Source: Gemmata massiliana
Lineage (GTDB): Bacteria; Planctomycetota; Planctomycetia; Gemmatales; Gemmataceae
DNA: 64,000 bases
Assembly (NCBI GenBank): GCA_000531095.1
Contig: HG799463.1
Span: 879,422 to 943,421 of the forward strand
Reading direction: 5' to 3'
Part shown: in pieces, positions 21,399-57,742 of the stretch
Layout: each line of letters opens with the position of its first letter
Numbering within the stretch: the stretch's first letter is position 1
Program-made: the position numbers and the translations under genes
The notes under the pieces: model-generated
What the model was told of the DNA's origin: nothing
What the model saw: only the letters and a program-made list of their open reading frames with translations
Databases searched by the model: none

Positions 21399-21438
21399 GG
21401 CGGCGATTTGTTGTGTTGTACGTGTTGCTTTTCGTTTG

Positions 21439-21494
21439 GTGGCACAGGCCTCTGGCCTGTGGAGGCGCTCACACAGGCCAGAGGCCTGTGCCAC
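21439..21494. repeat. Perfect 23-bp inverted repeat in a convergent gap
   Basis: Arms at 21439-21461 and 21472-21494 are perfect reverse complements with a 10-nt loop, and each arm itself contains the palindrome AGGCCTCTGGCCT-like core. It separates two convergent genes and could end transcription from both sides. Its look suggests a dispersed REP-like family. Confidence 0.8.
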
Positions 21495-21580
21495 GAACGC
21501 AAAAACACAGGCCCTCAGCACAACAGCATCGCTTTTTTAAGCCCGGCGCCGGTTGTCCCACCGCGGCCGGGCCTCGTGCG

Positions 21581-37923: not shown

Positions 37924-40113
37924 TCAGTTGATTTGCACGAGACCGCCCTTCACGGTCGTTACCCCGGCGCCTTCGACCGCGACCATTGGGCCTTCTACCT
38001 TCACTTGAGCGTCGCCCTTCAGGTTCACGTTCGGCGCCTTCACGGTCACGCCGGCCGGGGCGACTTCCACCGAACCCGCGCTGGCTTTGAGCGTCACCTT
38101 TGCGGCGTCGATCAAAACCCCGCTCGAATCGATGACGATCTTGTTCGCGCCCACCTTCAGCGTGATCGACGTTCCGGCTTGGATCTCGATGCTGCCCGCG
38201 GTCGCCTTGATACCGATATTGCCCTTTGCGACGGTCAACGTGTCGTTGCCCGTGTCGACGCCCACCACGCGGTTGCCCTTCGTGATCGTGTGCGTGTCGT
38301 TGCCCTTGGACACCGTGATGCCGCGGTTCCCCTCTTGCACGGTCACGGTGTAGTCGGATTTCACGTCGACGGTGCGCGTGCCCTTGCTCACGGTCAATGA
38401 TTCGTTGCCCTCGGACACCGTGACGCTGCGGTTGCCCTTGCTCACGAGCAGCGTGTCGTTGCCCTTCGAGACCGTTCGGTCGCGGTTGCCCTCTTCGATG
38501 GTGATCTTTTCGTAGCCCTTTTGCACCGTGAGCGTGCGATTGTTCTTGATCTGAATGAACTGGTCGTGCTCGACCTTCAGGTCGTCGTCGTTCTCCACGA
38601 ACCGGTGGAAGTCCTTCTGCGCGTGGAAGTAAATGTCCTCCTTGCCCTTCAAGTCCTCGAACCGCAGTTCGTTGAAGTCCTCGGTCCCGCCCCCCTTGCT
38701 GGAGCGCGTTTTCAAACCGCTCTGGGTCATGTTGGAGGGCAGCGCGTAGGGCGGCATCAGTTCGGCGTTGTACACGCGGCCCGTGATGAGCGGGCGGTCC
38801 GGGTCGCCCTCCAGGAACTCGACCACCACCTCCTGGCCGATCCGGGGCGTGAAGACCATGCCCCACTGCTTGCCCGCCCACATCTCGGACACGCGGATCC
38901 AGCACGAACTGTTCTCGTCCTTTTTGCCGAGCCGGTCCCAGAAGAACTGCACCTTCACGCGGCCGTACTTGTCGGTGTAAATCTCCTCCCCGCTCATGCC
39001 GACGACCACGGCCGTCTGTGCCCCGGAGATCCGGGGGCGCGGGGTCGTTGGCGCGGGGCGGAACGGCCGGGCCGTAGGGATAACGACGAACAAGTTCGAG
39101 TAATCGGCCATGCCGGGGCCGCCCCCGGCCCAATCCTCGCTCGCGTTGTGCTCCACCTCGAGGAACACGTAACTGCCGTTGTCGGACGGGTGCTTCTCCA
39201 GGGTGAACTTGCCCCCGGGAGTAAAAGACGAGCACCGGCTCGAACCGGTCGCGGTGTCGTACCCGGCCTCCACTTCCTCCATACGCGACTTCGCGAGCGC
39301 GGTACCGTCGCCCGCGACCGGGTACCCGCCCGGGTAGTCGAACAGCTCGAACTTGCCGATGCCGGTGAGCGAAAGGTTGGTGTCTACGTCCTTCAGCAGG
39401 TTCGTGTCCGGCGTCTCGAAGTTGTAGTCGGTGTGGGTAATTTTTCCCGAGCGGAACGCGAACCGCCGGTCCCAACTCGACACGCTTTCTGCGCCGGGCA
39501 TGTCCGGGCGGTACTCGACTGTGCCGTGCGGGGCGCAGTCGAACGTGACCGAGTTCGAGTCGGCCAGGACCAGCGTGTGTTGCCCCTCTTTGAACTCGAA
39601 GAAATAGTAGATCCCGTACTCTTCCATGAGCCGCGACACGAACGCGAACGCGGTCTCGCGGTACTGCACGCAGTACTCGCGCGTCGGGTACGTCCCCTGG
39701 AGCTTCTTCTTGTAGTCGGTGAGCCCGAGCCGGTCGAAGGTGCTCGTGATGATCGCGTCCACGGTCATGTTCTGGAAGATACGGCAGTCCGTGGTGCGCG
39801 TGAGGAACCACAGCCAGGGGACCACTTCGGCGCGGTACCGGCGCAAACCGCGGTCCGCGGTTTCGCCCGCGACCAGTTTCCGCACGAACCCGTGGAACGG
39901 GCGCGGGGAATCGTCGGGCATGTTGATGGTCCACCCGACCGCCTTACCGACCAGATCGGCCGCCGCGACCGTCAGGTTCTCCGAAACCAGATCGAGCGTG
40001 AACTCGAACGGCGCGGAGACGCGCTCGCGCCCGCGGAACCCGGTGACGACGAACGCATCGGCCCCGAGCGGGGTCGTGAGCGTGACGAGTCGGCGCATCT
40101 GTGTGAGGGGCAT
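37924..40113 (-). CDS. vgrG: Type VI secretion spike protein VgrG
   Basis: A 729-aa VgrG/TssI. The start at 40113 (MPLTQMRRLVTLTTPLGADA) avoids an upstream stretch (from 40191) that is unlike the family. The N-terminal gp27-like part shows FTLDLVSENLTV, WLWFLTRTTDCRIFQNMTV and YCVQYRETAFAFVSRLMEEY; the gp5 OB-fold region shows EIYTDKYGRVKVQFFWDRLG and GDPDRPLITGRVYN. The C-terminal beta-helix carries eleven repeats of about 9 aa. VgrG tips the needle and usually carries effectors; no effector or PAAR gene lies downstream. It follows hcp on the same strand. No baseplate or sheath genes are in view. Confidence 0.95.
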   Translation of the reverse strand: MPLTQMRRLVTLTTPLGADAFVVTGFRGRERVSAPFEFTLDLVSENLTVAAADLVGKAVGWTINMPDDSPRPFHGFVRKLVAGETADRGLRRYRAEVVPWLWFLTRTTDCRIFQNMTVDAIITSTFDRLGLTDYKKKLQGTYPTREYCVQYRETAFAFVSRLMEEYGIYYFFEFKEGQHTLVLADSNSVTFDCAPHGTVEYRPDMPGAESVSSWDRRFAFRSGKITHTDYNFETPDTNLLKDVDTNLSLTGIGKFELFDYPGGYPVAGDGTALAKSRMEEVEAGYDTATGSSRCSSFTPGGKFTLEKHPSDNGSYVFLEVEHNASEDWAGGGPGMADYSNLFVVIPTARPFRPAPTTPRPRISGAQTAVVVGMSGEEIYTDKYGRVKVQFFWDRLGKKDENSSCWIRVSEMWAGKQWGMVFTPRIGQEVVVEFLEGDPDRPLITGRVYNAELMPPYALPSNMTQSGLKTRSSKGGGTEDFNELRFEDLKGKEDIYFHAQKDFHRFVENDDDLKVEHDQFIQIKNNRTLTVQKGYEKITIEEGNRDRTVSKGNDTLLVSKGNRSVTVSEGNESLTVSKGTRTVDVKSDYTVTVQEGNRGITVSKGNDTHTITKGNRVVGVDTGNDTLTVAKGNIGIKATAGSIEIQAGTSITLKVGANKIVIDSSGVLIDAAKVTLKASAGSVEVAPAGVTVKAPNVNLKGDAQVKVEGPMVAVEGAGVTTVKGGLVQIN
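38209..38502 (-). repeat. Eleven 9-residue repeats in the VgrG beta-helix
   Basis: Read on the coding strand, 98 residues form eleven units of 9 aa (one of 8), each with a TVSKGN-like pattern (TVSKGNDTL, LVSKGNRSV, TVSEGNESL, TITKGNRVV, TVAKGNIGI). This is a regular triple-strand beta-helix stem. Exact repeats at protein level with diverged codons suggest old duplications. Confidence 0.85.
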
Positions 40114-40215: not shown

Positions 40216-40302
40216 GAACGTCAGGAAGGTCGAAAGTCGTAAAGTCGAAGACCAATGTGGTTGGTACCTTCGACTTTACGACTTTCGACCTTCCTGACGT
40301 TC
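40216..40302. repeat. 35-bp perfect inverted repeat between hcp and vgrG
   Basis: Arms at 40216-40250 and 40268-40302 are perfect reverse complements, and the loop ACCAATGTGGTTGGTAC contains a further short stem (ACCAA/TTGGT). The hairpin lies 18 nt downstream of the hcp stop and upstream of vgrG on the - strand. It could partly terminate or stabilise the hcp mRNA and so lower vgrG expression. Confidence 0.85.
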
Positions 40303-41126: not shown

Positions 41127-44100
41127 ATGCGGTTCCCTCTCTCAGTGGCCTCGTTACTCGTACTCGCGCTGCCGGCACTCGCGCAGCCAAAGCCCCCGGA
41201 CCTGCCCCCCCACCTGATGGCCCCCACCGACGCCCTCACACCCGCGGAGGAGCGGAAGGCGTTCACCGTGCCCGCCGGGTTCGATGTGCAACTCGTTGCC
41301 AGTGAACCCGATATCCAGAAGCCGATGCAGATGGCCTTCGACGCGAAGGGCCGGATGTGGGTGACGACCTCGTACCACTACCCGTTCGTGCCCCAGGGCA
41401 AGCCCACCGACAAACTGTTCGTCCTCTCCGATTTCGACCCGAAGACCGGCAAGGCCGGGAAGGTGCAGGTCTTCGCGGACGATCTGAACATCCCTATCGG
41501 AATTCTGCCGCTCCCGGATTGCAAGAGCTGCATCGTGTCGAGCGTCGGTGAGATCCGCAAGTACACGGACACCGACGGCGACGGTAAGGGCGACAAGATG
41601 GAGGTGCTGTTCAGCGGGTTCGGCTCCCGCGACACGCACGGGATGTACAACTCGTACACGCTCATGCCGGACGGGTGGGTGTACTCCTGCCACGGGTTCG
41701 CGAACGACAGTACGGTGCGAGGTAAGGACGGGCACGAGGTGAAAATGAACTCCGGGAACACGTTCCGGTTCCGACCGGACGGTTCGCGGCTCGAGGTCTG
41801 GACCCGCGGACAAGTGAACCCGTTCGGGATCGCGGTCGACCCGTGGTTCAACCTCTACACGGCCGACTGCCACTCGAAGCCGATCACGCAACTCGTTCCG
41901 GGCGCGTACTACGAGAGCTTCGGCAAACCGCACGACGGGCTGGGGTTCACCCCGCACGTCACCGCGCACCCGCACAAGAGCACCGGCTTGTGCGGGCTGG
42001 TGTGGTACGACGCGAACCAGTTCCCGGCGGAGTACAAGGGCACCATGCTCCTCGGCGATGTGGTCAGCAACTGCATCAGCTCCGACAAGATCGTGTGGAA
42101 GGGATCGACCCCGGTCGCGATCGAGCAGCCCGACTTCCTGACGAGCACGGACCGGTGGTTCCGCCCGGTGGACATCAAGCTCGGCACGGACGGCGCACTG
42201 TACGTGGCGGACTTTTACAACAAGATCATCGGTCACTACGAAGTGGACCTCAAAGACCCGCGCCGCGATAAAGACCGCGCACGCATCTGGCGCATCGTGT
42301 GGACCGGCAAGGACAAGAAGGCGCCCGCGCCGAAGTTCCACCGCGCCGATTTCACGACCGCGACGGACGCGGAATTGATGGACGACCTGTTCCACCCGAA
42401 CCTGGCGGTGCGGTTCTTCGCGGGGCACCAGCTCCGGCGCCGCGCGACCGAGGGAAATCTGAAGGGGGGCGTCCCCGGCGACAAGCTGGCAAAGAACCCG
42501 GAACTCGCGGCCTCGGTGATCGGCTGGAGCGCGTTCATCTCCGAGGCGCGCCCGCAACCGCTGGCGGCAAAAGATTACGAATTGCTGCGGGCGATTCACA
42601 AGGACGTGGGTGTTAAATCCGATCAACAGACCGGGCACCTGATTCGCGCGCTTTCGAGCCGCCCGAAGTGGGACAAGGACGAACGCGCGATCCTGCTCGA
42701 AGCTCTCAAATCGTCCGACTCGGCTCACCAAACGCGGGCCGCGGTCGAAACGGTAGCCCTGCACCCGCACGCGGAGTTCGTGGAACCGCTCGTCGAGGTG
42801 CTGCGGAAGTGCCCGGCGGACGACGTGCTGTTAAGGCAGGCGGCCCGGATCGCGCTGCGGAACTGCCTCCGCGACGACCCGAAGGGGTGGCCGACGGAGT
42901 ACAAGGCCGTTTACGCGGACATGGCCCTCGCGATCACCAGCCGCGACGCAGCCAAGTACCTCCTGTCTCAGATCAGCACGCGGAAGCTGTCTGCGGACCG
43001 GTTGCCGCCCGCGGCCGAACACGTCGCCCGTTACGGCGGCACTGAGGACGAAGAGACTCTGTTCAAGTCGCTGTCGTCGCCGCCGAACGCGGACGCGGTC
43101 GTTGCCGCGTTTAAGGGGGTGCAGGCTCGTGGAGCAAAACTCGGCGCCGATGCGACGAAACGCCTGTTGGAGCACGCGCAGAGCGCGGTTCACGCGAGTG
43201 ATTTTGCGGCGGGCCTCCCTCCCGCGGGTGTTATCCGCGCGGTCTGGGGGCTGCGAGTGCTTAACGCCCTGCCCACCGTTGCCGAACGCGGAGCCAACGG
43301 ACCGAAATTGGCGCCTCAATCCGTGACGGCCCTGGCGTCCGCGGTGGCCAGCCCGAAGGTGTCGGACGAGATCCGCATCGGGGCGGCGGAAGTGCTGCTC
43401 CGGTACGCGCCGGCGGAGAGTATTAATGCGGTGCGAAAGCAACTGGCGGAACCGACCACGTCCGAGTCCGTGCGCGCGGGGTTCCTAATTGCCTTCGCAG
43501 CGTCCAACGTTCCCGGGGCGCAAGTCGAAGCTCGTGACGGGATGAAAGGCGTGCCGTATCGGATCGCGGTGCAGATCGCTCTGAACCTCGCGGGCACAAA
43601 GGACGGCGCGGACATTCTTCTGACTGCTGTCAAGCAGGGGCAAGCACCGCAGCGGTTGCTCCAGGAAAAAGCCGTGCTTGAACGGCTGAAAGCGTCTGGC
43701 GTGCCGAACTGGGAGAAACAGGTCGCGGATCTGACGAAGGGGCTTCCGCCCGCGGACCAGCGGCTCGCGGAACTTATCAAGAAGCGCGCGACCGGGTTCG
43801 CGTCCGCCAAGGCCGATAAGGTTGAAGGCGCGAAGCTGTTCGCCAAACACTGTGCCGCGTGTCACAAGATTGGTGACCAGGGCGGGAAGATCGCCCCGCA
43901 GCTCGATGGCATCGGCGTTCGAGGGGTGGAGCGCCTGCTCGAAGACGTGCTCGACCCGAACCGTAACGTCGATCAGGCCTTCCGCGCGCGGTCGATCACC
44001 ACGAGCGACGACCGTACCATCACCGCTCTGATGCTTCGAGTGGAGGGCGAGGTATTGGTGGTCGCGGACCTGGAGGGCAAGGAGAAGCGCATCCCACTCA

Positions 44101-44237
44101 AAGAGATCACGCTGAACCGCGAAACGTTGCTCTCCGCAATGCCCGCGAACTTCAGTGATGTGATTCCCGAAGTCGACTTCTATCACATCATCGCGTACTT
44201 GCTCGATCAAAAAGCGAAAGACCCGCCGAAGAAGTGA
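41127..44237 (+). CDS. Second secreted PVC-type haem-binding dehydrogenase-like protein
   Basis: A 1036-aa protein with a signal peptide ending near PALAQP. It has the beta-propeller dehydrogenase-like part (FDAKGRMWVTTSYHYPFVPQ, DTHGMYNSYTLMPDGWVYSC, LGTDGALYVADFYNKIIGHY), a long HEAT-repeat-like helical region with LRQAARIALRNCL and VAAFKGVQARG, then a c-type cytochrome domain with CAACH at residues 909-913 and LDPNRNVDQAF. This follows the same domain order as the gene at 207-3647, though the sequences differ widely. The role is presumably periplasmic redox chemistry on an unknown substrate. Confidence 0.9.
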   Translation: MRFPLSVASLLVLALPALAQPKPPDLPPHLMAPTDALTPAEERKAFTVPAGFDVQLVASEPDIQKPMQMAFDAKGRMWVTTSYHYPFVPQGKPTDKLFVLSDFDPKTGKAGKVQVFADDLNIPIGILPLPDCKSCIVSSVGEIRKYTDTDGDGKGDKMEVLFSGFGSRDTHGMYNSYTLMPDGWVYSCHGFANDSTVRGKDGHEVKMNSGNTFRFRPDGSRLEVWTRGQVNPFGIAVDPWFNLYTADCHSKPITQLVPGAYYESFGKPHDGLGFTPHVTAHPHKSTGLCGLVWYDANQFPAEYKGTMLLGDVVSNCISSDKIVWKGSTPVAIEQPDFLTSTDRWFRPVDIKLGTDGALYVADFYNKIIGHYEVDLKDPRRDKDRARIWRIVWTGKDKKAPAPKFHRADFTTATDAELMDDLFHPNLAVRFFAGHQLRRRATEGNLKGGVPGDKLAKNPELAASVIGWSAFISEARPQPLAAKDYELLRAIHKDVGVKSDQQTGHLIRALSSRPKWDKDERAILLEALKSSDSAHQTRAAVETVALHPHAEFVEPLVEVLRKCPADDVLLRQAARIALRNCLRDDPKGWPTEYKAVYADMALAITSRDAAKYLLSQISTRKLSADRLPPAAEHVARYGGTEDEETLFKSLSSPPNADAVVAAFKGVQARGAKLGADATKRLLEHAQSAVHASDFAAGLPPAGVIRAVWGLRVLNALPTVAERGANGPKLAPQSVTALASAVASPKVSDEIRIGAAEVLLRYAPAESINAVRKQLAEPTTSESVRAGFLIAFAASNVPGAQVEARDGMKGVPYRIAVQIALNLAGTKDGADILLTAVKQGQAPQRLLQEKAVLERLKASGVPNWEKQVADLTKGLPPADQRLAELIKKRATGFASAKADKVEGAKLFAKHCAACHKIGDQGGKIAPQLDGIGVRGVERLLEDVLDPNRNVDQAFRARSITTSDDRTITALMLRVEGEVLVVADLEGKEKRIPLKEITLNRETLLSAMPANFSDVIPEVDFYHIIAYLLDQKAKDPPKK

Positions 44238-44255
44238 GAGCAGAAGAAAAACGAT

Positions 44256-44279
44256 CGTGCCGCGTTCACCTGCGGCACG
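44256..44279. terminator. Hairpin after the second PVC gene
   Basis: CGTGCCGC (44256-44263) pairs with GCGGCACG (44272-44279) around GTTCACCT, 18 nt after the stop codon. A second hairpin (44318-44324 with 44335-44341, CCGGACG/CGTCCGG) follows. Neither has a downstream T-run on the + strand. Confidence 0.65.
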
Positions 44280-44907
44280 TCTAACTAGTGAGTATTGGAG
44301 AGAGGGCGTCCGCTGCCCCGGACGGTTCGTAAATCGTCCGGGCGGCGCACGCTCTACCCGAAGTTGTTTCTCGGCGGGCATCGGCAGTGCAAGTTGTTGG
44401 TGGATGCGCGTTAGAGTTTGTATCGATCATGTTCACGGGCGGGATCTTAGCGCGGTTTTCAACGCATTTCGCGGCCCGCCCGTGCACTCGGAACTAACAC
44501 CGCGGAAGGTCTCGGTTCCAGTTGCTCTTGTGCGTGACGGGCAGTTTTTATCTCCTATCGGCCGCGTTCGGAAACCGCAATCTGCCCGACGGCGCAGCAG
44601 CCCGAGGTGTATAATGTCGATAGACAGTTAGCGGGGCGCGTTTCGATTTCGCAACAGTACAGCCCTGCTCGCGTATTCCGCACAGTTTGCCGAATCGCGC
44701 GACGCGCCCGTCGTCTAGGATTTCTTCAGCGTTGTGTTTGGTGCTTGATATTTGGTATTTTGCGTTTCGGCCCGATTCCTGCTGTGGGCGTTCCCCCGAC
44801 AATCGCTGCCGAAACACTTAATATCAACGAAAGCCCGGATCACTGTCGTTTTCGGACCCTGGTCGGTCCCTCCTCTCCAAAACCGACCTCTGCCGGGAGT
44901 ATTCCAC
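44280..44907. other. 628-bp gene-free region before the E1 alpha gene
   Basis: No ORF is convincing. After the hairpins the segment 44700-44780 is AT-rich with repeats of the style TTGGTGCTTGATATTTGGTA, a decayed dispersed sequence. The E1 alpha start at 44908 has a ribosome-binding site GGGAG just upstream, so the promoter must lie in this region. Confidence 0.45.
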
Positions 44908-46038
44908 ATGCCGGAATCAAACGAGGATCCGCCCGATATTGAGGACGCGCTGCTGCGGCGCGGCACACGCACCGCAGCACCGTCCGCGATCCGCTCGGGT
45001 CGCGACGTCATGTCGGTCGAGGTCGCGCTCACGGTTTTTCGTCAGATGCTCCGCACGCGCGCTCTTGAGGAGCGCAGCATCAAGATGTCCAAGTCCGGGG
45101 AGGCCTACTTCTGGATAGGCGGGCCGGGCGAAGAGGCCTTCAACGTCTGCCTCGGACTTCAAATCAACAAGGGCCGCGGTCCCGCTCACGATTACCTGCA
45201 CCTCCACTACCGCAGCGCCGGGGTCATGCTCGCGATGGGGATGCCCATGATCGAGCACACGCGGCAACTCGCGATGCGGTGGACCGACCGGCACTCTCGC
45301 GGGCGCAACTTCGTCGGCCACTACAGCATTCCCGAGTGGAACGTCGTTCCGGTGACGAGCGTGATCGAGGTGCAGTTCGCGATGGCGCCCGGTACGGCGC
45401 TCGTCCAGAAGCGCCACGGACTGAAGAACCCGCACGAGAGCGAGGGGATCAGCGTCGTCGTGGGGGGCGAAGCGGGTACCGCGGAAGGCGACTTCGAGAC
45501 TTGCCTCAACTGGAGCACGCGGCCCGGTATGGAACTGCCGGTGCTGATGCTGGTGACCAACAACCGGTACGGGATCTCGACCGACCTCGATACCGTTCAC
45601 ACGCACCGGCCGATCGCGGACCGGGCGGTCCCTTACGGTGTGCGCCACGAGACGATCGACGGCACCGACCCGATCGCGGCGTGGCACGGCATCGATCGCG
45701 CGATGCGGTACTGCCGGCGCGAGCGCAAGCCGTTCCTGCTCGAAGCGATGGTGAGCCGGTTGCACGGGCACTCGTCTTCGAGCGGCGCCCAGCGCAACTG
45801 GAACGAAGTCGATCCGCTGAACGCATTCGAGCAAAAGCTCATCGACGCGGGCGCGATCGACATCAACGGTGTTCGCGCGATGAAGGACGAGGCGAAGGCG
45901 GAAGCGGACGAGGCCGTCGTCGCGACAATGAAAGAAGATGAACCGACCCGCGAGGACGTGTACGCCTTCACCTACGCCGCGAGCGAGGTGGACGCAGTTT
46001 ATCCCAAGGATTTCACCGGTCTTCCCGGAGCGAAGTAA
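44908..46038 (+). CDS. 2-oxoacid dehydrogenase complex, E1 alpha subunit
   Basis: A 376-aa thiamine-diphosphate-dependent subunit, first gene of a 2-oxoacid dehydrogenase operon. The start at 44908 (MPESNEDPPDIEDALL) has GGGAG upstream. Conserved pieces include SGEAYFWIGGPGEEAFNVCL, LHYRSAGVMLAMGM and FVGHYSIPEW. The usual GDG of the ThDP-Mg motif is GEA here (VVGGEAGTAEGDFETCLNW, then LVTNNRYGIST), so Asp is Glu; similar variants exist in related planctomycete enzymes as I recall. Which acid (pyruvate or branched-chain) cannot be read. Confidence 0.9.
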   Translation: MPESNEDPPDIEDALLRRGTRTAAPSAIRSGRDVMSVEVALTVFRQMLRTRALEERSIKMSKSGEAYFWIGGPGEEAFNVCLGLQINKGRGPAHDYLHLHYRSAGVMLAMGMPMIEHTRQLAMRWTDRHSRGRNFVGHYSIPEWNVVPVTSVIEVQFAMAPGTALVQKRHGLKNPHESEGISVVVGGEAGTAEGDFETCLNWSTRPGMELPVLMLVTNNRYGISTDLDTVHTHRPIADRAVPYGVRHETIDGTDPIAAWHGIDRAMRYCRRERKPFLLEAMVSRLHGHSSSSGAQRNWNEVDPLNAFEQKLIDAGAIDINGVRAMKDEAKAEADEAVVATMKEDEPTREDVYAFTYAASEVDAVYPKDFTGLPGAK

Positions 46039-46057
46039 GACATCACCACGAAGGGCC

Positions 46058-46152
46058 GGATTTCGGATTGTGGGTTTGCGATTGGTGATTGGAAGCCCTC
46101 GGGGACTAACCCGACCTTCAATCTTCGATCACAAATCCGCAATCGGAAATCC
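46058..46152. repeat. Imperfect inverted repeat between the E1 genes
   Basis: Arms of 38 and 37 nt (46058-46095 and 46116-46152) pair with several mismatches; each looks like GGATTTCGGATTGTGGGTTT-type sequence. The pattern suggests a decayed dispersed palindromic element. It sits in the 164-bp gap between the E1 alpha and E1 beta genes and could affect the relative amounts of the subunits. Confidence 0.7.
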
Positions 46153-46205
46153 CGCTCCCCGTGGTGAACGGCTTTTACGGCCTGTAACTTCGCCGAGGAG
46201 CAATG

Positions 46206-47264
46206 ATGGCGAACATGGCACAAGCGGTGCGAATGGCACTGCACTACGGCGAGAAGCACCTCGGTGTGACGGACGTGTTCGGTGAAGACGTCGGTCCGCC
46301 GCTCGGCGGGGTGTTTACCGCGACCCAGGGGCTGAAGACCGCGTGGAACACCCCGCTCGACGAGCGCGGCATCATCGGCACCGCGATGGGGATCGCCTAC
46401 GCCGGCGGCCGGCCCGTCTGCGAGATCCAGTTCTGCGACTACGCCTTCAACGTTCTGGACATGTTCAAGCTCGCTGGCAACCAGCGGTGGGCCAGCGGCG
46501 GCGGGTACGACATGCCCATTGTCGTGATGACGCCGAACGGGGCGGGCATCCGCGGGAGCCTGTACCACTCGCACAGCTTCGAGAGCTGGGCGAGCCGGCT
46601 CGCGGGCTGGAAAATCGTGATGCCGTCCAGCGCACTGGACGCTTATGGCCTCGTGCTCGCGGCGATCAAAGACCCGAACCCGGTCCTCGTTTTGCTCCCC
46701 AAAGCGCTGCTCCGCGCCCGCGACACGCGACTCATCCCGGGCGAACCGGCCGACGCGGACGAACTGAGCCGGATGATCGACGCGCCGATCGGGGACCGCA
46801 CCGAGTGGGAACCGAACTGGCCGGAACTCGAAGACCACACCGTGAAGATCGGTACCGCCGAACTGGTTCGCGAGGGCACGTTCGGCACCGTCATCAGCTA
46901 CGGGCGCTTGCTGCCGCTGTGCGCACAAGCCGCGGACGAACTCGCGACCGCGCACCACCGCACGTTCGACGTGATCGACCTGCGGAGCATCTTCCCCTAC
47001 GACTGGGATATGATCTCCCGTAGCGTGCTGAAAACGGGCCGCGTGCTGATCGTGAACGAGGACACCGAGGTCACGAACTTCGGCGAGCACCTGCTCCGCC
47101 GGATCGTGGACGAGCACTTCTACGATCTCTCGGTGCGCCCGCGGACGCTGATGGGCAAACACGTGCCCGGCATCGGCATGAACCAGAACTACGAACTCAA
47201 CAGCGTCCCGCAGTTGGGCGACATTCGCAGCGCGCTGTGGGATCTGGCGACCGAGGCCACTTAA
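46206..47264 (+). CDS. 2-oxoacid dehydrogenase complex, E1 beta subunit
   Basis: A 352-aa transketolase-fold partner of E1 alpha. The ATG at 46206 (MANMAQAVRMALHY) suits the upstream GAGGAG better than the one at 46203. Typical pieces are VFGEDVGPPLGGVFTATQGL, DERGIIGTAMGIAYAGGRPV, YALNDMFKLAG-like (NVLDMFKLAGNQRWASGGGY), and the C-terminal transketolase domain DVIDLRSIFPYDWDMI and RVLIVNEDTEVTNFGEHLLR. It pairs with E1 alpha to form the alpha2-beta2 or dimer form of the enzyme. The E3 gene is not in the window. Confidence 0.93.
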   Translation: MANMAQAVRMALHYGEKHLGVTDVFGEDVGPPLGGVFTATQGLKTAWNTPLDERGIIGTAMGIAYAGGRPVCEIQFCDYAFNVLDMFKLAGNQRWASGGGYDMPIVVMTPNGAGIRGSLYHSHSFESWASRLAGWKIVMPSSALDAYGLVLAAIKDPNPVLVLLPKALLRARDTRLIPGEPADADELSRMIDAPIGDRTEWEPNWPELEDHTVKIGTAELVREGTFGTVISYGRLLPLCAQAADELATAHHRTFDVIDLRSIFPYDWDMISRSVLKTGRVLIVNEDTEVTNFGEHLLRRIVDEHFYDLSVRPRTLMGKHVPGIGMNQNYELNSVPQLGDIRSALWDLATEAT

Positions 47265-47324
47265 AAGAACCCGATTCCCGGTCGAACGAAAAGCCCACAC
47301 GGGACACGCGAGCGGAGCGAACAC

Positions 47325-47603
47325 ATGGATTTTCCTCTCCCGCCGGTCGGCGAAGGGCTGCTCGAAGTCGAGCTGACCCGCTGGCTCGTGAGGCCCGGCG
47401 ACGCGATCGCGCGGGGCCAAGCGATGGCCGAGGTGATGTCCGACAAGGCGAGTATGGAGGTGCCGGCACCCTTCGCGGGCACGATTACCGCGCTGAGTGC
47501 CGCGCCGGGCACGAAGATCAAAGTTGGTCAGGTGATCCTGAGTTACACCCCGGTCGGCGATGGGAGCGCGAAAGACAAACCTACCCCCCGCCCCCCTCCC
47601 TGA
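47325..47603 (+). CDS. Lipoyl domain: 5' fragment of an interrupted E2 gene
   Basis: A 92-aa biotinyl/lipoyl-type domain beginning MDFPLPPVGEGLLEVELTRW, with the lipoylation lysine in EVMSDKASMEVPAP. It is followed by the start of the inter-domain linker and then stops at a TGA (47601) inside the palindromic element. The rest of a normal E2 (peripheral-subunit-binding and catalytic domains) follows in the same frame after the element. A free lipoyl domain protein is possible but this is most simply read as the 5' part of one E2 gene. The start has GGAG 8 nt upstream. Confidence 0.85.
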   Translation: MDFPLPPVGEGLLEVELTRWLVRPGDAIARGQAMAEVMSDKASMEVPAPFAGTITALSAAPGTKIKVGQVILSYTPVGDGSAKDKPTPRPPP

Positions 47604-47717
47604 AGGAAAGGGGGAGCTGACGCGCGAGCCCGCTGAACTTGGGTCAGTGTCTCCCTCGGGTGTGAGTTCTGTCTCCCCCTTCCCTTCAGGGAGGGGGGAC
47701 GGGGGGTAGGTCTTCGC
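47568..47717. repeat. 150-bp palindromic element interrupting the E2 gene
   Basis: Left arm 47568-47616 and right arm 47673-47717 are near-perfect inverted repeats with ends GCGAAAGACAAACCTACC and GGTAGGTCTTCGC. It contains two in-frame stops for E2 (47601 and 47634) but its length leaves the frame on both sides the same. No target duplication is obvious. It looks like a non-autonomous palindromic element of a dispersed family. Confidence 0.8.
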
Positions 47718-47762
47718 ACCTCCAACGGCCACACCACGACGCTTCCGCCCGCAGCACCGTCC

Positions 47763-48653
47763 GTGCGCATGCTCGCCCGCAAGTTCGGGGTCGACCTCTC
47801 ACTCGTTCGCGGGAGCGGCCCGCACGGGCGCATCCTGCTCGACGACCTCGCACCGTACCTTACTCCGCGCCCCAGCCCCGGTGCCCGTCCCGCGTCCGCG
47901 CCGAGCGGAACGGACACGTCGAAACTCGATTTCGGCATCGCCGGCACGCGACAGAAACTCATCGGCCTGCGCCGGCGTATTGCCGAGCACATGGTCGAAT
48001 CGAAGAAGCACATCCCGCACTATTCGTACATCGACGAGTGCGATCTCACCGACGCGGTGAAGCTGCGGACCCAACTCCGCGAGCCACTCGCCAAGGCCGG
48101 CGTGAAGCTCACCTACCTCGCGTTCTTCGTGAAGGCCGTGGCGCGGGCGCTCAAGGAGGTGCCGATCGTCAACAGCACTTACGACGAGGCCGCGGGTGAA
48201 GTGGTGCTCCACGACAAGTATCACATTGGCATCGCGGTCGCGGCCCCGAGCGGGTTGATGGTGCCGGTCGTCAAGGACGCGGACAAGAAAGATCTGGCCA
48301 CCATTGCCACCGACATCGAGCGCCTGGGCAACGACGCAAAAAGCGGCAAGAGCAAGCTCGATGACCTGCGCGGCAGCACGTTCACGGTTACGTCGGTGGG
48401 GGGGATCGGTGGGCTGATCTCCACGCCGATTATCAACCACCCGGAAGTCGGGATCATGGGCGTGGGCAAAGTGGTGAAGCGCCCGCTCTACGACGCCAAC
48501 GGCGCGCTGAAACCGTCGGACATCGTGTACCTGTCGTTCTCCTTCGATCACCGTGTTGTGGACGGCGCGATCGGGGCCGCATTCGGCAACGCCGTCACGC
48601 GCTACCTCCAGACCCCGGCCGTGCTGCTTCTGCCGGAGACGTTCGGTGGCTGA
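47763..48653 (+). CDS. Dihydrolipoamide acyltransferase E2: 3' fragment (PSBD and catalytic domains)
   Basis: A 296-aa fragment with the peripheral-subunit-binding domain (ARKFGVDLSLVRGSGPHGRI) and the catalytic core ending in the HxxxDG-type motif (SFDHRVVDGAIGAA), preceded by TVTSVGGIGGLISTPIINHP. It lacks a lipoyl domain. The possible starts are GTG 47763 or ATG 47769, but no clear ribosome-binding site precedes them, so efficient re-initiation is doubtful. Its stop overlaps the next gene. It would need the free lipoyl fragment upstream, or readthrough, to function. Confidence 0.85.
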   Translation: MRMLARKFGVDLSLVRGSGPHGRILLDDLAPYLTPRPSPGARPASAPSGTDTSKLDFGIAGTRQKLIGLRRRIAEHMVESKKHIPHYSYIDECDLTDAVKLRTQLREPLAKAGVKLTYLAFFVKAVARALKEVPIVNSTYDEAAGEVVLHDKYHIGIAVAAPSGLMVPVVKDADKKDLATIATDIERLGNDAKSGKSKLDDLRGSTFTVTSVGGIGGLISTPIINHPEVGIMGVGKVVKRPLYDANGALKPSDIVYLSFSFDHRVVDGAIGAAFGNAVTRYLQTPAVLLLPETFGG

Positions 48654-49938
48654 TCGCAGCGGTACAACGTGGATACTACGGTTCGCGCCGGCCGTGTTAC
48701 TCGGCCTGCTGGGTGTTCAGCAGGCTCTGGCAACGAACCACTTTCCCGACCTCTTCATCTACCGCGCCGGCTCGGAACTCGGGCTGCGCGGCGAGTCTCC
48801 TTACAACATCGCACTCATTCGACAGATCACATCGGCCCAGTTCCCGGACGATAGCCCACAGGAAGACAGTTTCATCCTGAATTGTGGGTACTTTCTCCCA
48901 CCGATGGCCGCACTCGTGTTCGCGCCGTTCGCGGCACTCGCGTGGCCGGCAGCCAAGGTCGCCTGGGGGATCGTGATCGGCTTCGCCGCGGCTGGGATCG
49001 CCTCGTTACCGGATCTGTTTCAGAAGTCCGGTGCCGAGCCGCCGATACGAACGGGGGTTCTATCGCTCATCGTGCGGTTCTCGCTCGTGTTGAACCCGCT
49101 CGCACTGGCAATCGCAATCGTCGGACAGGTCACCGTCGTTTCGGTCGGGTGCGTGGTGGTGGGGTTGTGGTGCATTTCGTACAACCGACCGGTGCTCGGC
49201 GCGGTTCTGTGGTCCGTGGTGTTCGTGAAGCCACACGTCGCTCTGCCTCTTATTCCACTGGCTTGGTACCTCGGTGGCTGGAAACCTGCCGCGATCCTGG
49301 TCGCTTTAGTAGCCGGTTTAAACCTGCTCGGTGCAACAGTGATGGGCGGTTCGCCACTGTTCCTGAAGGATTACTTCGACTACCTCCCGACCGGCCACAA
49401 GGCCGTTCTGTACAACCAAGCGGAACGGAACCCACAAATCACGAGTTGGAACCGCCTTCTCATCTCGTGCGGCGGTCCACCCATCGAGCTCAGTGCGATC
49501 ACGACGATCGCCGGCTACCTCGTATGGGGCGGGCTGGTGGTCGGTCGGTGTGCGGTGACAGGTCGGCGCCCGCCCGCGCCGTGGGCGGGCGCGGCGGCCG
49601 TTTCGGGTGCGGTGGTGTGCAGTCAGGTATTGGTGTACGAGCTGCTGATGCTCGTGATCGCCGTGCCGTGGATACGCGATTTGTTCGCTGCCCGGCGCCT
49701 GGTGTGGGGCTGGACGGCCGTGCTATTCCTGGTGATTCAGACGATCCCTATCAACGGCACAAGCCCGGTGCTCGATTTCTACCGCCCCGGCGGCGCGCTG
49801 GCGTTCGCGCTACTCGTACTCCTGGGGCCAATCGCTCCGGAGCTGCTCCCGCTCTCGCCTTCCTTGCAATCGGGGGAGCACTGCCCCGCACCGGTCGCGC
49901 GACAGGACGAACCCGGCTTCACGACACGGTGCCCTTAA
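48646..49938 (+). CDS. GT87/DUF2029-like polytopic membrane glycosyltransferase
   Basis: A 430-aa membrane protein with about ten hydrophobic helices. The GTG start at 48646 ([13 protein letters not shown]) overlaps the E2 stop by 8 nt and has GGAG 8 nt upstream, so it is translationally coupled. The opening [15 protein letters not shown], then [20 protein letters not shown] and [20 protein letters not shown], and the later [19 protein letters not shown] match DUF2029 (GT87) proteins, polyprenyl-phosphate-mannose-dependent in some members. The substrate is unknown. Its 3' end overlaps panD by 20 nt on the opposite strand. Confidence 0.8.
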
Positions 49939-50278
49939 TCGTGTTCCCGCGGTCGATGAACACGACCCGCGGCTGGTGTACGCGGGCGTCCGCGTCCTCG
50001 TACTCCGCGAACGTCGCGATAATCACGATATCGCCGGTGCGGATCAGGTGCGCACCGGCCCCGTTCACGCAGATCACCCCGCTCCCCCGCGGCCCTTCGA
50101 GTGCGTAGGTGATGAGGCGCGTCCCGTTGGTCACGTCCCACACGTGGATCTGCTCGTGCGGCAGGATGTCCGCGGCTTCGAGCAGGTCGGTGTCGATCGT
50201 CAGACTGCCCTCGTACTCGACGTTCGTTTCCGTCACCGTCGCGCGGTGCAGTTTCGACTTCATCATGAATCGGCGCAT
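49919..50278 (-). CDS. panD: Aspartate 1-decarboxylase
   Basis: A 119-aa pro-enzyme that makes beta-alanine for pantothenate and coenzyme A. The N-terminus [20 protein letters not shown] lines up with the E. coli enzyme, and cleavage between Gly24 and Ser25 in YEGSLTID would generate the pyruvoyl cofactor. [19 protein letters not shown] and the ending IKGTVS are also typical. The start is the first of three ATGs because it gives the family length. The end overlaps the GT87-like gene by 20 nt. Confidence 0.96.
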
Positions 50279-50375
50279 GTGATCCCCAACTCGCGATCCG
50301 TTAGCATTTCGCTGACCATTCTACGCGCAGCGGGTAAGATGTCGTGCGGACGACACCTATAAAGGAGCCTGATTC

Positions 50376-51062
50376 ATGCGAATTGCTTTACAATTCGGTG
50401 CCCTCGCGGTCGTGGTGTGCGCCGCGAGCCTGCGCGCGGACGAGAAAGCCCAACCCCCCGAAAAGCCGGCCGCGCCGCCCGCCGGGTTCACGAGCCTCTT
50501 CAACGGCACGAGCCTCGACGGGTGGAAGGTGAGCGGCGGTAAGGCCGAAGCCTGGGGCACCGAAAACGGCACGATCGTGTGCAAAAGTGGCGGGGGCGGG
50601 TACCTGCTGACCGAAAAAGAGTACGCCAACTTCGAGTTCCGGTGCGAGTACAAGTGGGCGAAAGCGGGCGGCAATAGCGGCGTCGGCATCCGCACCCCGG
50701 AAAAGGGCGATCCGGCCTACGCCGGCATGGAGATCCAACTCATCGACGACGAGGGCTGGGAATCGGTCAACAAGTCGAAGTTGGCCGGCTACCAGCACAC
50801 CGGCTCCATCTACGATGTGCAGCCCGCGAAAGAGGCGAAGAACAAGAAGATCGGTGAGTGGAACACCGTGAAGATCGTCTGTGACGGGCGCAAGGTGACC
50901 GTCGTTCACAACGACGTGGAACTGGTGAACGCGACCCTTGACGACTACAAGAAGAAGTTCGATAAGCACCCCGGCTTGGAGCGCACGAAGGGGCACATCG
51001 GGTTCCAGAGCTACAACATCCGCGTCGACTTCCGCAACGTGTGGATCAAAGAACTGAAGTAA
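50376..51062 (+). CDS. Exported DUF1080 (3-keto-disaccharide hydrolase-like) protein
   Basis: A 228-aa protein with a signal peptide (QFGALAVVVCAASLRAD) and a strong ribosome-binding site (AAAGGAG). The DUF1080 domain is concanavalin-like and shows FTSLFNGTSLDGWKVSGGK, GNSGVGIRTPEKGDPAYAGM, EIQLIDDEGWE and KGHIGFQSYNIRVDFRNVWI. In recent work this domain has been linked to hydrolysis of 3-keto-glycosides; planctomycetes carry dozens. The position in this gene island gives no further hint. The gene is monocistronic and followed by a long nested palindrome. Confidence 0.93.
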   Translation: MRIALQFGALAVVVCAASLRADEKAQPPEKPAAPPAGFTSLFNGTSLDGWKVSGGKAEAWGTENGTIVCKSGGGGYLLTEKEYANFEFRCEYKWAKAGGNSGVGIRTPEKGDPAYAGMEIQLIDDEGWESVNKSKLAGYQHTGSIYDVQPAKEAKNKKIGEWNTVKIVCDGRKVTVVHNDVELVNATLDDYKKKFDKHPGLERTKGHIGFQSYNIRVDFRNVWIKELK

Positions 51063-51078
51063 TCTATTGGGAACCAAC

Positions 51079-51215
51079 AGAATCCAGGGGTTGAAACCCC
51101 TGGCCATTACCGGTGGCCCCGTTGCGGCCGCAAAGACAACGGGGCCACCGGTCTTTTGCATTTGGACCCCGAAGGGGTCACCGGTAGTAGCCAGGGGTTT
51201 CAACCCCTGGATTCT
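51079..51215. repeat. Nested palindromes in a convergent gap
   Basis: An outer 26-bp perfect inverted repeat (51079-51104 with 51190-51215) encloses an inner 16-bp perfect one (51109-51124 with 51137-51152) and a short hairpin at 51165-51179. Each outer arm is itself palindromic (CCAGGGGTTGAAACCCCTGG). It fills most of the 165-bp gap between two convergent genes and can act as a bidirectional terminator. Confidence 0.85.
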
Positions 51216-57603: not shown

Positions 57604-57742
57604 GTGGAAGAGTTTTGACAGGATTTACAGGATGAACGGGATCAGAACCCAAAGTCGGTTGAACACGGCCTCACGAGCCGCGCTCTCGAGTGCCTGTTCC
57701 GAATCCGGTCGATCCTGTAAATCCTGTCAAAAACTCTTCCAC
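57604..57742. repeat. Inverted repeat with GACAGGATTTACAGGAT arms
   Basis: Arms at 57604-57633 and 57712-57742 match as reverse complements over about 30 bp with a 1-nt difference, separated by about 78 bp. The core TCCTGTAAATCCTGTC looks like a dispersed bacterial repeat. It sits downstream of the chemoreceptor gene's 3' end. Confidence 0.8.

Follow-up and report, generated by a model that had tools for sequence, protein, structure and literature searches.

An E2 gene on two open reading frames

The window, a 64,000-nucleotide stretch of the Gemmata massiliana genome, carries an operon for E1α, E1β and E2 on its forward strand. E1α (44752–46038, start uncertain) and E1β (46203–47264) are both unbroken, and E2 follows them as two open reading frames (ORFs) in a single frame, at 47325–47603 and 47763–48653. 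The first encodes 92 residues with a lipoyl domain (Pfam Biotin_lipoyl, 66.5 bits), keeps the sequence SDKASMEV, which contains what we take to be the DKA lipoylation motif, and ends at a TGA codon (47601–47603) within a palindrome. The second, 296 residues counted from its first possible start (GTG at 47763, with ATG at 47769 next), encodes the PSBD and acyltransferase core (E3_binding, 36.3 bits; 2-oxoacid_dh, 274.9 bits) and keeps FDHRVVDG, presumably the recognised motif of the E2 core. Two in-frame TGA codons, at 47601 and 47634, stand between the halves, and 159 nt separate the end of the stop from the next start. As in a standard E2, the lipoyl, PSBD and catalytic domains are all recognisable; unlike in a standard E2, the G. 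massiliana assembly places them on two ORFs instead of a single polypeptide. A first-pass annotation had described this in-frame arrangement with the same two stops, and the ORF list and the Pfam searches confirm it.

That annotation had also judged the ribosome-binding site ahead of the second part to be poor, which agrees with what we find, on a score that only weakly tells genuine starts apart from random positions. Pairing with an assumed 16S tail sequence gave duplex energies of +0.7 for the GTG at 47763 and −1.7 for the ATG at 47769, with −5.8 for the lipoyl ORF and −7.9 for E1β as reference starts; for random 22-mers of the window the median was −3.3 and the 5% value −9.2. By this weakly discriminating score neither start of the second ORF is favoured, and no Shine–Dalgarno sequence was detected before 47763 or 47769. 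The genome holds three further E2 genes, in an aceE plus aceF-like pair, with a 2-oxoglutarate dehydrogenase and in a fusion of E1 with E2 (L169, L170 and L171), the linkers of which appear by eye to be Ala/Pro-rich.

The palindrome between the halves had been given as 150 bp; it is there, but we put its size at 131 bp (47580–47710, forward strand), with ends CCTACCCCCCG...CGGGGGGTAGG. Its arms of 33 nt (47584–47616 and 47673–47705) are 91% complementary, and an outer pair overlaps them. The predicted fold has an energy of −104.3 kcal/mol (z = −9.6), and none of 200 shuffles folded as well; searched with gathering thresholds, the window contained no Rfam family. An alternative-frame ORF on the forward strand (47560–47709) crosses the palindrome and reads it in the peptide frame used by several other copies (PLPEGKGE...SPFPSGRG); we do not claim it as a gene.

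Sought at other loci, as the first-pass annotation had proposed, the element proved to be dispersed. This family, A, has at least 98 matches on both strands of the G. massiliana genome (40 of 94 candidate regions were scored) and is present in 14 of the 19 genomes of the genus. A complete pair of ends was found at 31 of the 40 repeat loci examined, the E2 copy included. Among the scored regions, the near-full-length copy that comes closest to the one in E2 matches it at 81% identity. Family-A copies have their arms, as terminal inverted repeats, in common, and their ends contain GGTAG; many copies are preceded by AA and followed by TT, dinucleotides that may belong to the element. At several loci a copy of another family, B, sits within A or beside it. 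The first of the two stops in E2, TGA at 47601, stems from the family-A arm sequence read in that phase.

Several other repeats lie in the window. A large inverted repeat at 51079–51215 (49-nt arms, 88%) differs in sequence from family A, and a perfect one at 40216–40302 has 35-nt arms and a 17-nt loop. Further inverted repeats stand at 21426–21507 and 57613–57732 (arms of 36 and 30 nt), and direct repeats spaced mostly 54 bp apart at 38184–38502.

Palindromes in protein genes across the genus

The E2 core was sought in 59 genomes, that of the window included, and matched in 58. We denote the genome of the window G000 and its relatives within Gemmata G001–G018, of which G008 is the sister genome. 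All 18 relatives carry a close E2 core in an unsplit ORF, with 76–99% identity (G018 is cut by a contig end), and in G008, the nearest, the core is 99% identical. Comparison of E2 in sister species, another step that the first-pass annotation had named, finds the split in G000 alone. Every one of the 18 readable linkers has a length divisible by three, and 17 contain no stop, the exception being G000. The contig CAMDQN010000042.1, titled Singulisphaera sp. GP187, carries a 91% identical E2 and is nevertheless placed in the genus of the window (L065).

Palindromic DNA is widespread at this site. In 9 of the 18 linkers (G000, G004, G001, G015, G002, G016, G010, G005 and G014) the best inverted repeat was better than in any of 100 dinucleotide shuffles; it was equalled by 5, 2, 3 and 1 shuffles per 100 in G008, G012, G011 and G007, and was unremarkable in five (G003, G017, G009, G013 and G006). 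When family motifs are counted too, palindromic DNA occurs in the E2 linker of 13 of the 19 genomes, a count that leaves out G011, which has no such motif, and includes G018 by eye from its cut contig. No fewer than three dispersed families, unlike one another, contribute these palindromes. The linker hairpins of G015 and G014 each represent such a family, and for G016 and G002 the motifs counted (E and F) were read off their own linkers. Relatedness of families was judged from hairpins alone, whole-linker comparisons, which include conserved flanks, being left unused, and comparison of the hairpins of A, G015 and G014 gave no similarity beyond that of shuffles (404, 369 and 66 of 500 reached the score).

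On a tree of the E2 core, the families switch between close relatives, for example to C in G015 within the B group. The tree groups G000 with G008. By our reading the linkers of G008 and G012 hold a truncated A plus B, and that of G000 a full A without B; although the tree joins G000 and G008, their linkers differ in this way, so the G000 linker, as assembled, was rewritten after the two split. Judged from these sequences, a palindrome in the linker is in itself not odd for the genus; the two stops are.

The repeat also lies inside other genes. A Pfam test of the flanks covered 20 of the 39 other repeat loci read in G000, and at 7 of these, in addition to E2, the repeat has domains of a single gene on either side. 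Five of the seven are open in a single frame: a thiL-like AIRS protein (L002; the name thiL is inferred), a GT87 protein (L008), a carboxyltransferase (CT_A_B, L149), a poly(A)/CCA polymerase (L159) and an SMUBP-2-like helicase (L161). The other two are broken at the repeat, rarA/MgsA with AAA_assoc_2 pieces 2–39 and 45–81 across it, and penicillin amidase with pieces 168–417 and 420–673. No single gene spans the repeat at the remaining 13 of the 20 loci, and at L017, L145 and L162 the sides belong to different genes. Codon-usage scoring was rejected as a coding classifier, since wrong frames (stop-free windows, 95th percentile 0.31) scored as high as coding ones (median 0.27), and served only to choose ORFs for Pfam.

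Five of these sites could be followed in relatives. First, the thiL loop, readable in 14 of the 18 genomes given, is always in frame and stop-free. In nine relatives its length is 24–30 nt; in G000, G008, G012, G015 and G016 it is 51–303 nt, and palindromic DNA can be made out there by eye. Family A stands at the same point in G000 and G008 with flanks that align well, and the interiors are 40% identical as they stand and 68% identical with one of them reversed; other G000 copies reach up to 72% identity to the G008 interior. The thiL loop holds different palindromes in G000, G008, G012 and G016 (L172, L173, L174 and L177).

Second, the rarA loop, readable in 14 of 16 genomes, is in frame and stop-free in 13 and out of frame only in G000, where two runs of G each lack one base relative to G008. 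G008 and G012 have in-frame palindromes there and G004 a related peptide. The G000 site (L011/L232, G000:C3:499277–499404) goes out of frame at a family-A palindrome. Third, penicillin amidase is one ORF in G008 (831 residues) and in G012 (848 residues), with repeat-like peptides at the site in both. The G000 gene (L164/L248, G000:C2 near 685800–686030) is broken at a composite palindrome. Fourth, the polymerase loop is readable in 3 of 18 genomes (G000, G008 and G012) and open in all three. Fifth, the carboxyltransferase loop is readable in 8 of 18 genomes and open in seven, with repeat-like sequence in G000 and G004; in the fragmented assembly of G003 the gene (L218) is out of frame, with a palindrome-like insertion and 188 nt between the anchors.

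Altogether the frame is kept without stops in five of the seven other genes and in 17 of the 18 E2 linkers, the exceptions being the E2 copy, rarA and penicillin amidase of G000 and the carboxyltransferase of G003. Searches with whole genes flag stops in several matches, among them the G008 thiL, where the stop precedes the start, and likewise in the polymerase and carboxyltransferase of G001, G002, G003, G005, G007, G009 and G016. Runs of N (7 to 259 bases), not necessarily assembly gaps, lie in or beside G000 repeat copies at L016, L152, L153, L154, L158, L160 and L165.

Age of the split and its possible causes

Between window positions 41822 and 51000, the only stretch left unaligned to G008 by blastn is 47574–47719, the rewritten linker (no strand assigned). 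Outside the element, this interval shows no net frame change relative to G008, indels falling between genes, apart from two at 44805/44808 that compensate each other within the uncertain N-terminal part of E1α. Between G000 and G008, dS is 0.221 and dN 0.0045 for the E2 core, and 0.306 and 0.024 for the lipoyl domain. We assigned the changes to branches with G012 as the outgroup, which left 7 synonymous changes ambiguous. The G008 branch has 8 synonymous and 4 non-synonymous changes in the lipoyl domain and 22 and 0 in the rest of E2; the G000 branch has 6 and 0 in the lipoyl domain and 15 and 3 in the rest, the three lying in the PSBD and in the linker that follows it. The G000 branch therefore carries 21 synonymous changes over the whole gene, and the amino-acid sequences of the lipoyl and catalytic domains are unchanged, where about 51 replacements would be expected under neutrality. 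By our arithmetic from these sequence counts (Poisson 95% limit), neutral decay would account for at most about 6% of the G000 branch. Because both halves stayed constrained after the split from G008, the state with stops would be very recent, an error of assembly or a functional split. The first-pass annotation had offered inactivation of the gene as one of two outcomes; we still favour it, with the amendment that it must be very recent, the halves having been under purifying selection for most of the lineage.

Our preferred explanation, to which we give about even chances, is that a resident, translated palindrome in the E2 linker recently lost its frame. The repeat family would reside partly inside Gemmata protein genes, mostly in frame and without stops, and its copies there should be translated as loops or linkers, the frame being observed and the translation predicted from it. 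The flexible linker between lipoyl domain and PSBD is a favoured home, in which species carry different palindromes. After G000 and G008 split, the G000 linker was rewritten, in the assembly, to a full-length family-A copy in a phase with two TGA codons; the route may have been new insertion, overwriting from another copy through the palindromic arms, or inversion. Translation of the lipoyl part would end inside the hairpin, and the catalytic part would be left without a recognisable start signal. The most likely consequence, we infer, is recent loss or strong reduction of one E2, not a stable two-protein E2. Such a loss is perhaps tolerable because the genome has its three other E2 genes. Two observations count against parts of this explanation: the absence of any lipoyl or catalytic amino-acid change on the lineage confines decay to at most about 6% of the branch, and a very recent copy-and-paste insertion should have a near-identical donor, for which the best candidate in the scored regions is the 81% copy noted above. 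The N runs and the breaks in rarA and penicillin amidase, genes that are broken in G000 but open in the sister genomes read, fit an assembly error as well as biology.

That alternative, which we consider possible though clearly less probable than recent loss of frame, holds that the true allele has a stop-free, in-frame palindromic linker and that the stops are errors within a hairpin that is rich in GC and built of runs of C and of G. N runs, not all of them necessarily gaps, lie in or beside several repeat copies; three genes (E2, rarA and penicillin amidase) are broken at a repeat in the G000 draft; the readable G008 sites are open (E2, thiL, rarA, polymerase and penicillin amidase); the two rarA G runs are each one base short of those in G008; and both E2 halves are constrained. 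Against it, the total length is in frame, so that a lone run-length error would not open the gene; two or more errors that offset one another, or reversal of the element, would be required. The first TGA also fits the phase of the family consensus, and outside the element 41822–51000 has no net frame change relative to G008.

The other outcome raised by the first-pass annotation was a free 92-residue lipoyl carrier working with a separate, lipoyl-less PSBD/core E2. We find this improbable. The kept motifs and the purifying selection in both halves would suit it, and there is a precedent in Corynebacterium, where OdhA has an E2 catalytic domain without a lipoyl domain of its own. The PDH–ODH hybrid complex is built on AceF, and the E2 acyltransferase domain is in the ODH E1 protein, according to the available portion of one report (PMC7568260). 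Against a two-protein E2 stand the missing start signal before the core, the hairpin of −104 kcal/mol and the 159 nt that intervene, and the fact that no other member of the genus is split; with 18 of 18 relatives unsplit (G018 being contig-cut), the proposal finds no comparative support. Our ranking from the sequence data favours recent loss of frame first, assembly error second and a working two-protein E2 third.

A palindrome that reverses within the gene, between an open (on) and a closed (off) state, with the assembly showing the off state, is in our view very unlikely. Reversal in silico at 47580–47710 or 47579–47711 does open the frame, which has two stops as assembled, and the thiL interiors of G000 and G008 match better with one reversed. 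Stops remain, however, for 6 of the 8 breakpoint pairs tested; 33 of 102 orientation–phase combinations of 17 other copies are open in any case; and with other copies up to 72% identical to the G008 interior, overwriting would explain thiL equally well. The opening of the frame by reversal is a lead, no more. On a wider conjecture, which we hold to be rather doubtful, the in-gene palindromes of Gemmata would be contingency modules, flipped or overwritten by other genomic copies through their near-identical arms, that rewrite loops in housekeeping enzymes from one sister species to the next and sometimes switch a gene like E2 off and on. Recoding, by which full-length E2 would be made through stop readthrough, slippage on C/G runs or hairpin bypass, is the least credible: each stop is a TGA, there are six-base runs of C or G to either side and the halves are constrained, but two compensating slips would be required and Rfam is empty in the window at gathering thresholds.

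Intragenic palindromes in other bacteria

The nearest known counterparts are the Rickettsia palindromic elements (RPEs), which the accessible part of one paper describes as about 150 bp long, in ten families and often in frame within genes (PMC10969869); part of another reports that RPE groups differ at the same locus of orthologous genes, as with RPE-4, RPE-6 and RPE-7 (PMC3767692). The Gemmata element is likewise a palindrome of about 100–150 bp, in several families, mostly in frame in ordinary protein genes. It differs in its host, a member of the unrelated phylum Planctomycetota with a large, GC-rich genome, in its arms of C and G runs, in its nested families and in its change between sister species. 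Palindromes resembling the Wolbachia palindromic elements (WPEs) lie within addA, addB and priA and, in the portion of the report at hand, keep the frame free of stops except in addA of isopod strains, which has a premature stop (PMC4224334). That addA stop is the closest parallel to the E2 case, with the differences that Wolbachia is an endosymbiont and that its stop removes a nuclease domain, whereas the stop in Gemmata parts a carrier domain from a catalytic core. The likeness of the Gemmata element to the RPEs and WPEs is one of behaviour.

REP or GTAG repeats and MITEs are also short dispersed palindromes (PMC3733652 and PMC10969869, in the parts available), GTAG repeats are reported in Planctomycetes in the same portion of the former (PMC3733652), and the ends of the Gemmata element contain GGTAG. 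Unlike REPs, which are described as 20–40 bp and are extragenic by name, it is 131 bp long and intragenic. Within the part of the matches listed from the open-licence literature, we found no paper on intragenic palindromes in Gemmata or other planctomycetes, and the available portion of the G. massiliana genome paper mentions palindromic repeats only as CRISPR (PMC4672568).

In-frame intragenic palindromes as described before, in Rickettsia and Wolbachia, are readily put down to drift, the hosts being endosymbionts with small populations. Here the same life-style is met in a planctomycete genus with large genomes, with several dissimilar families at the same loops of core enzymes that change between sisters. 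Gene calling and assembly in the genus need care at hairpins. The split of E2 would be the failure mode of palindromes that live in genes, and the genus makes it possible to test how a selfish element turns into protein sequence and where in a protein it is tolerated.
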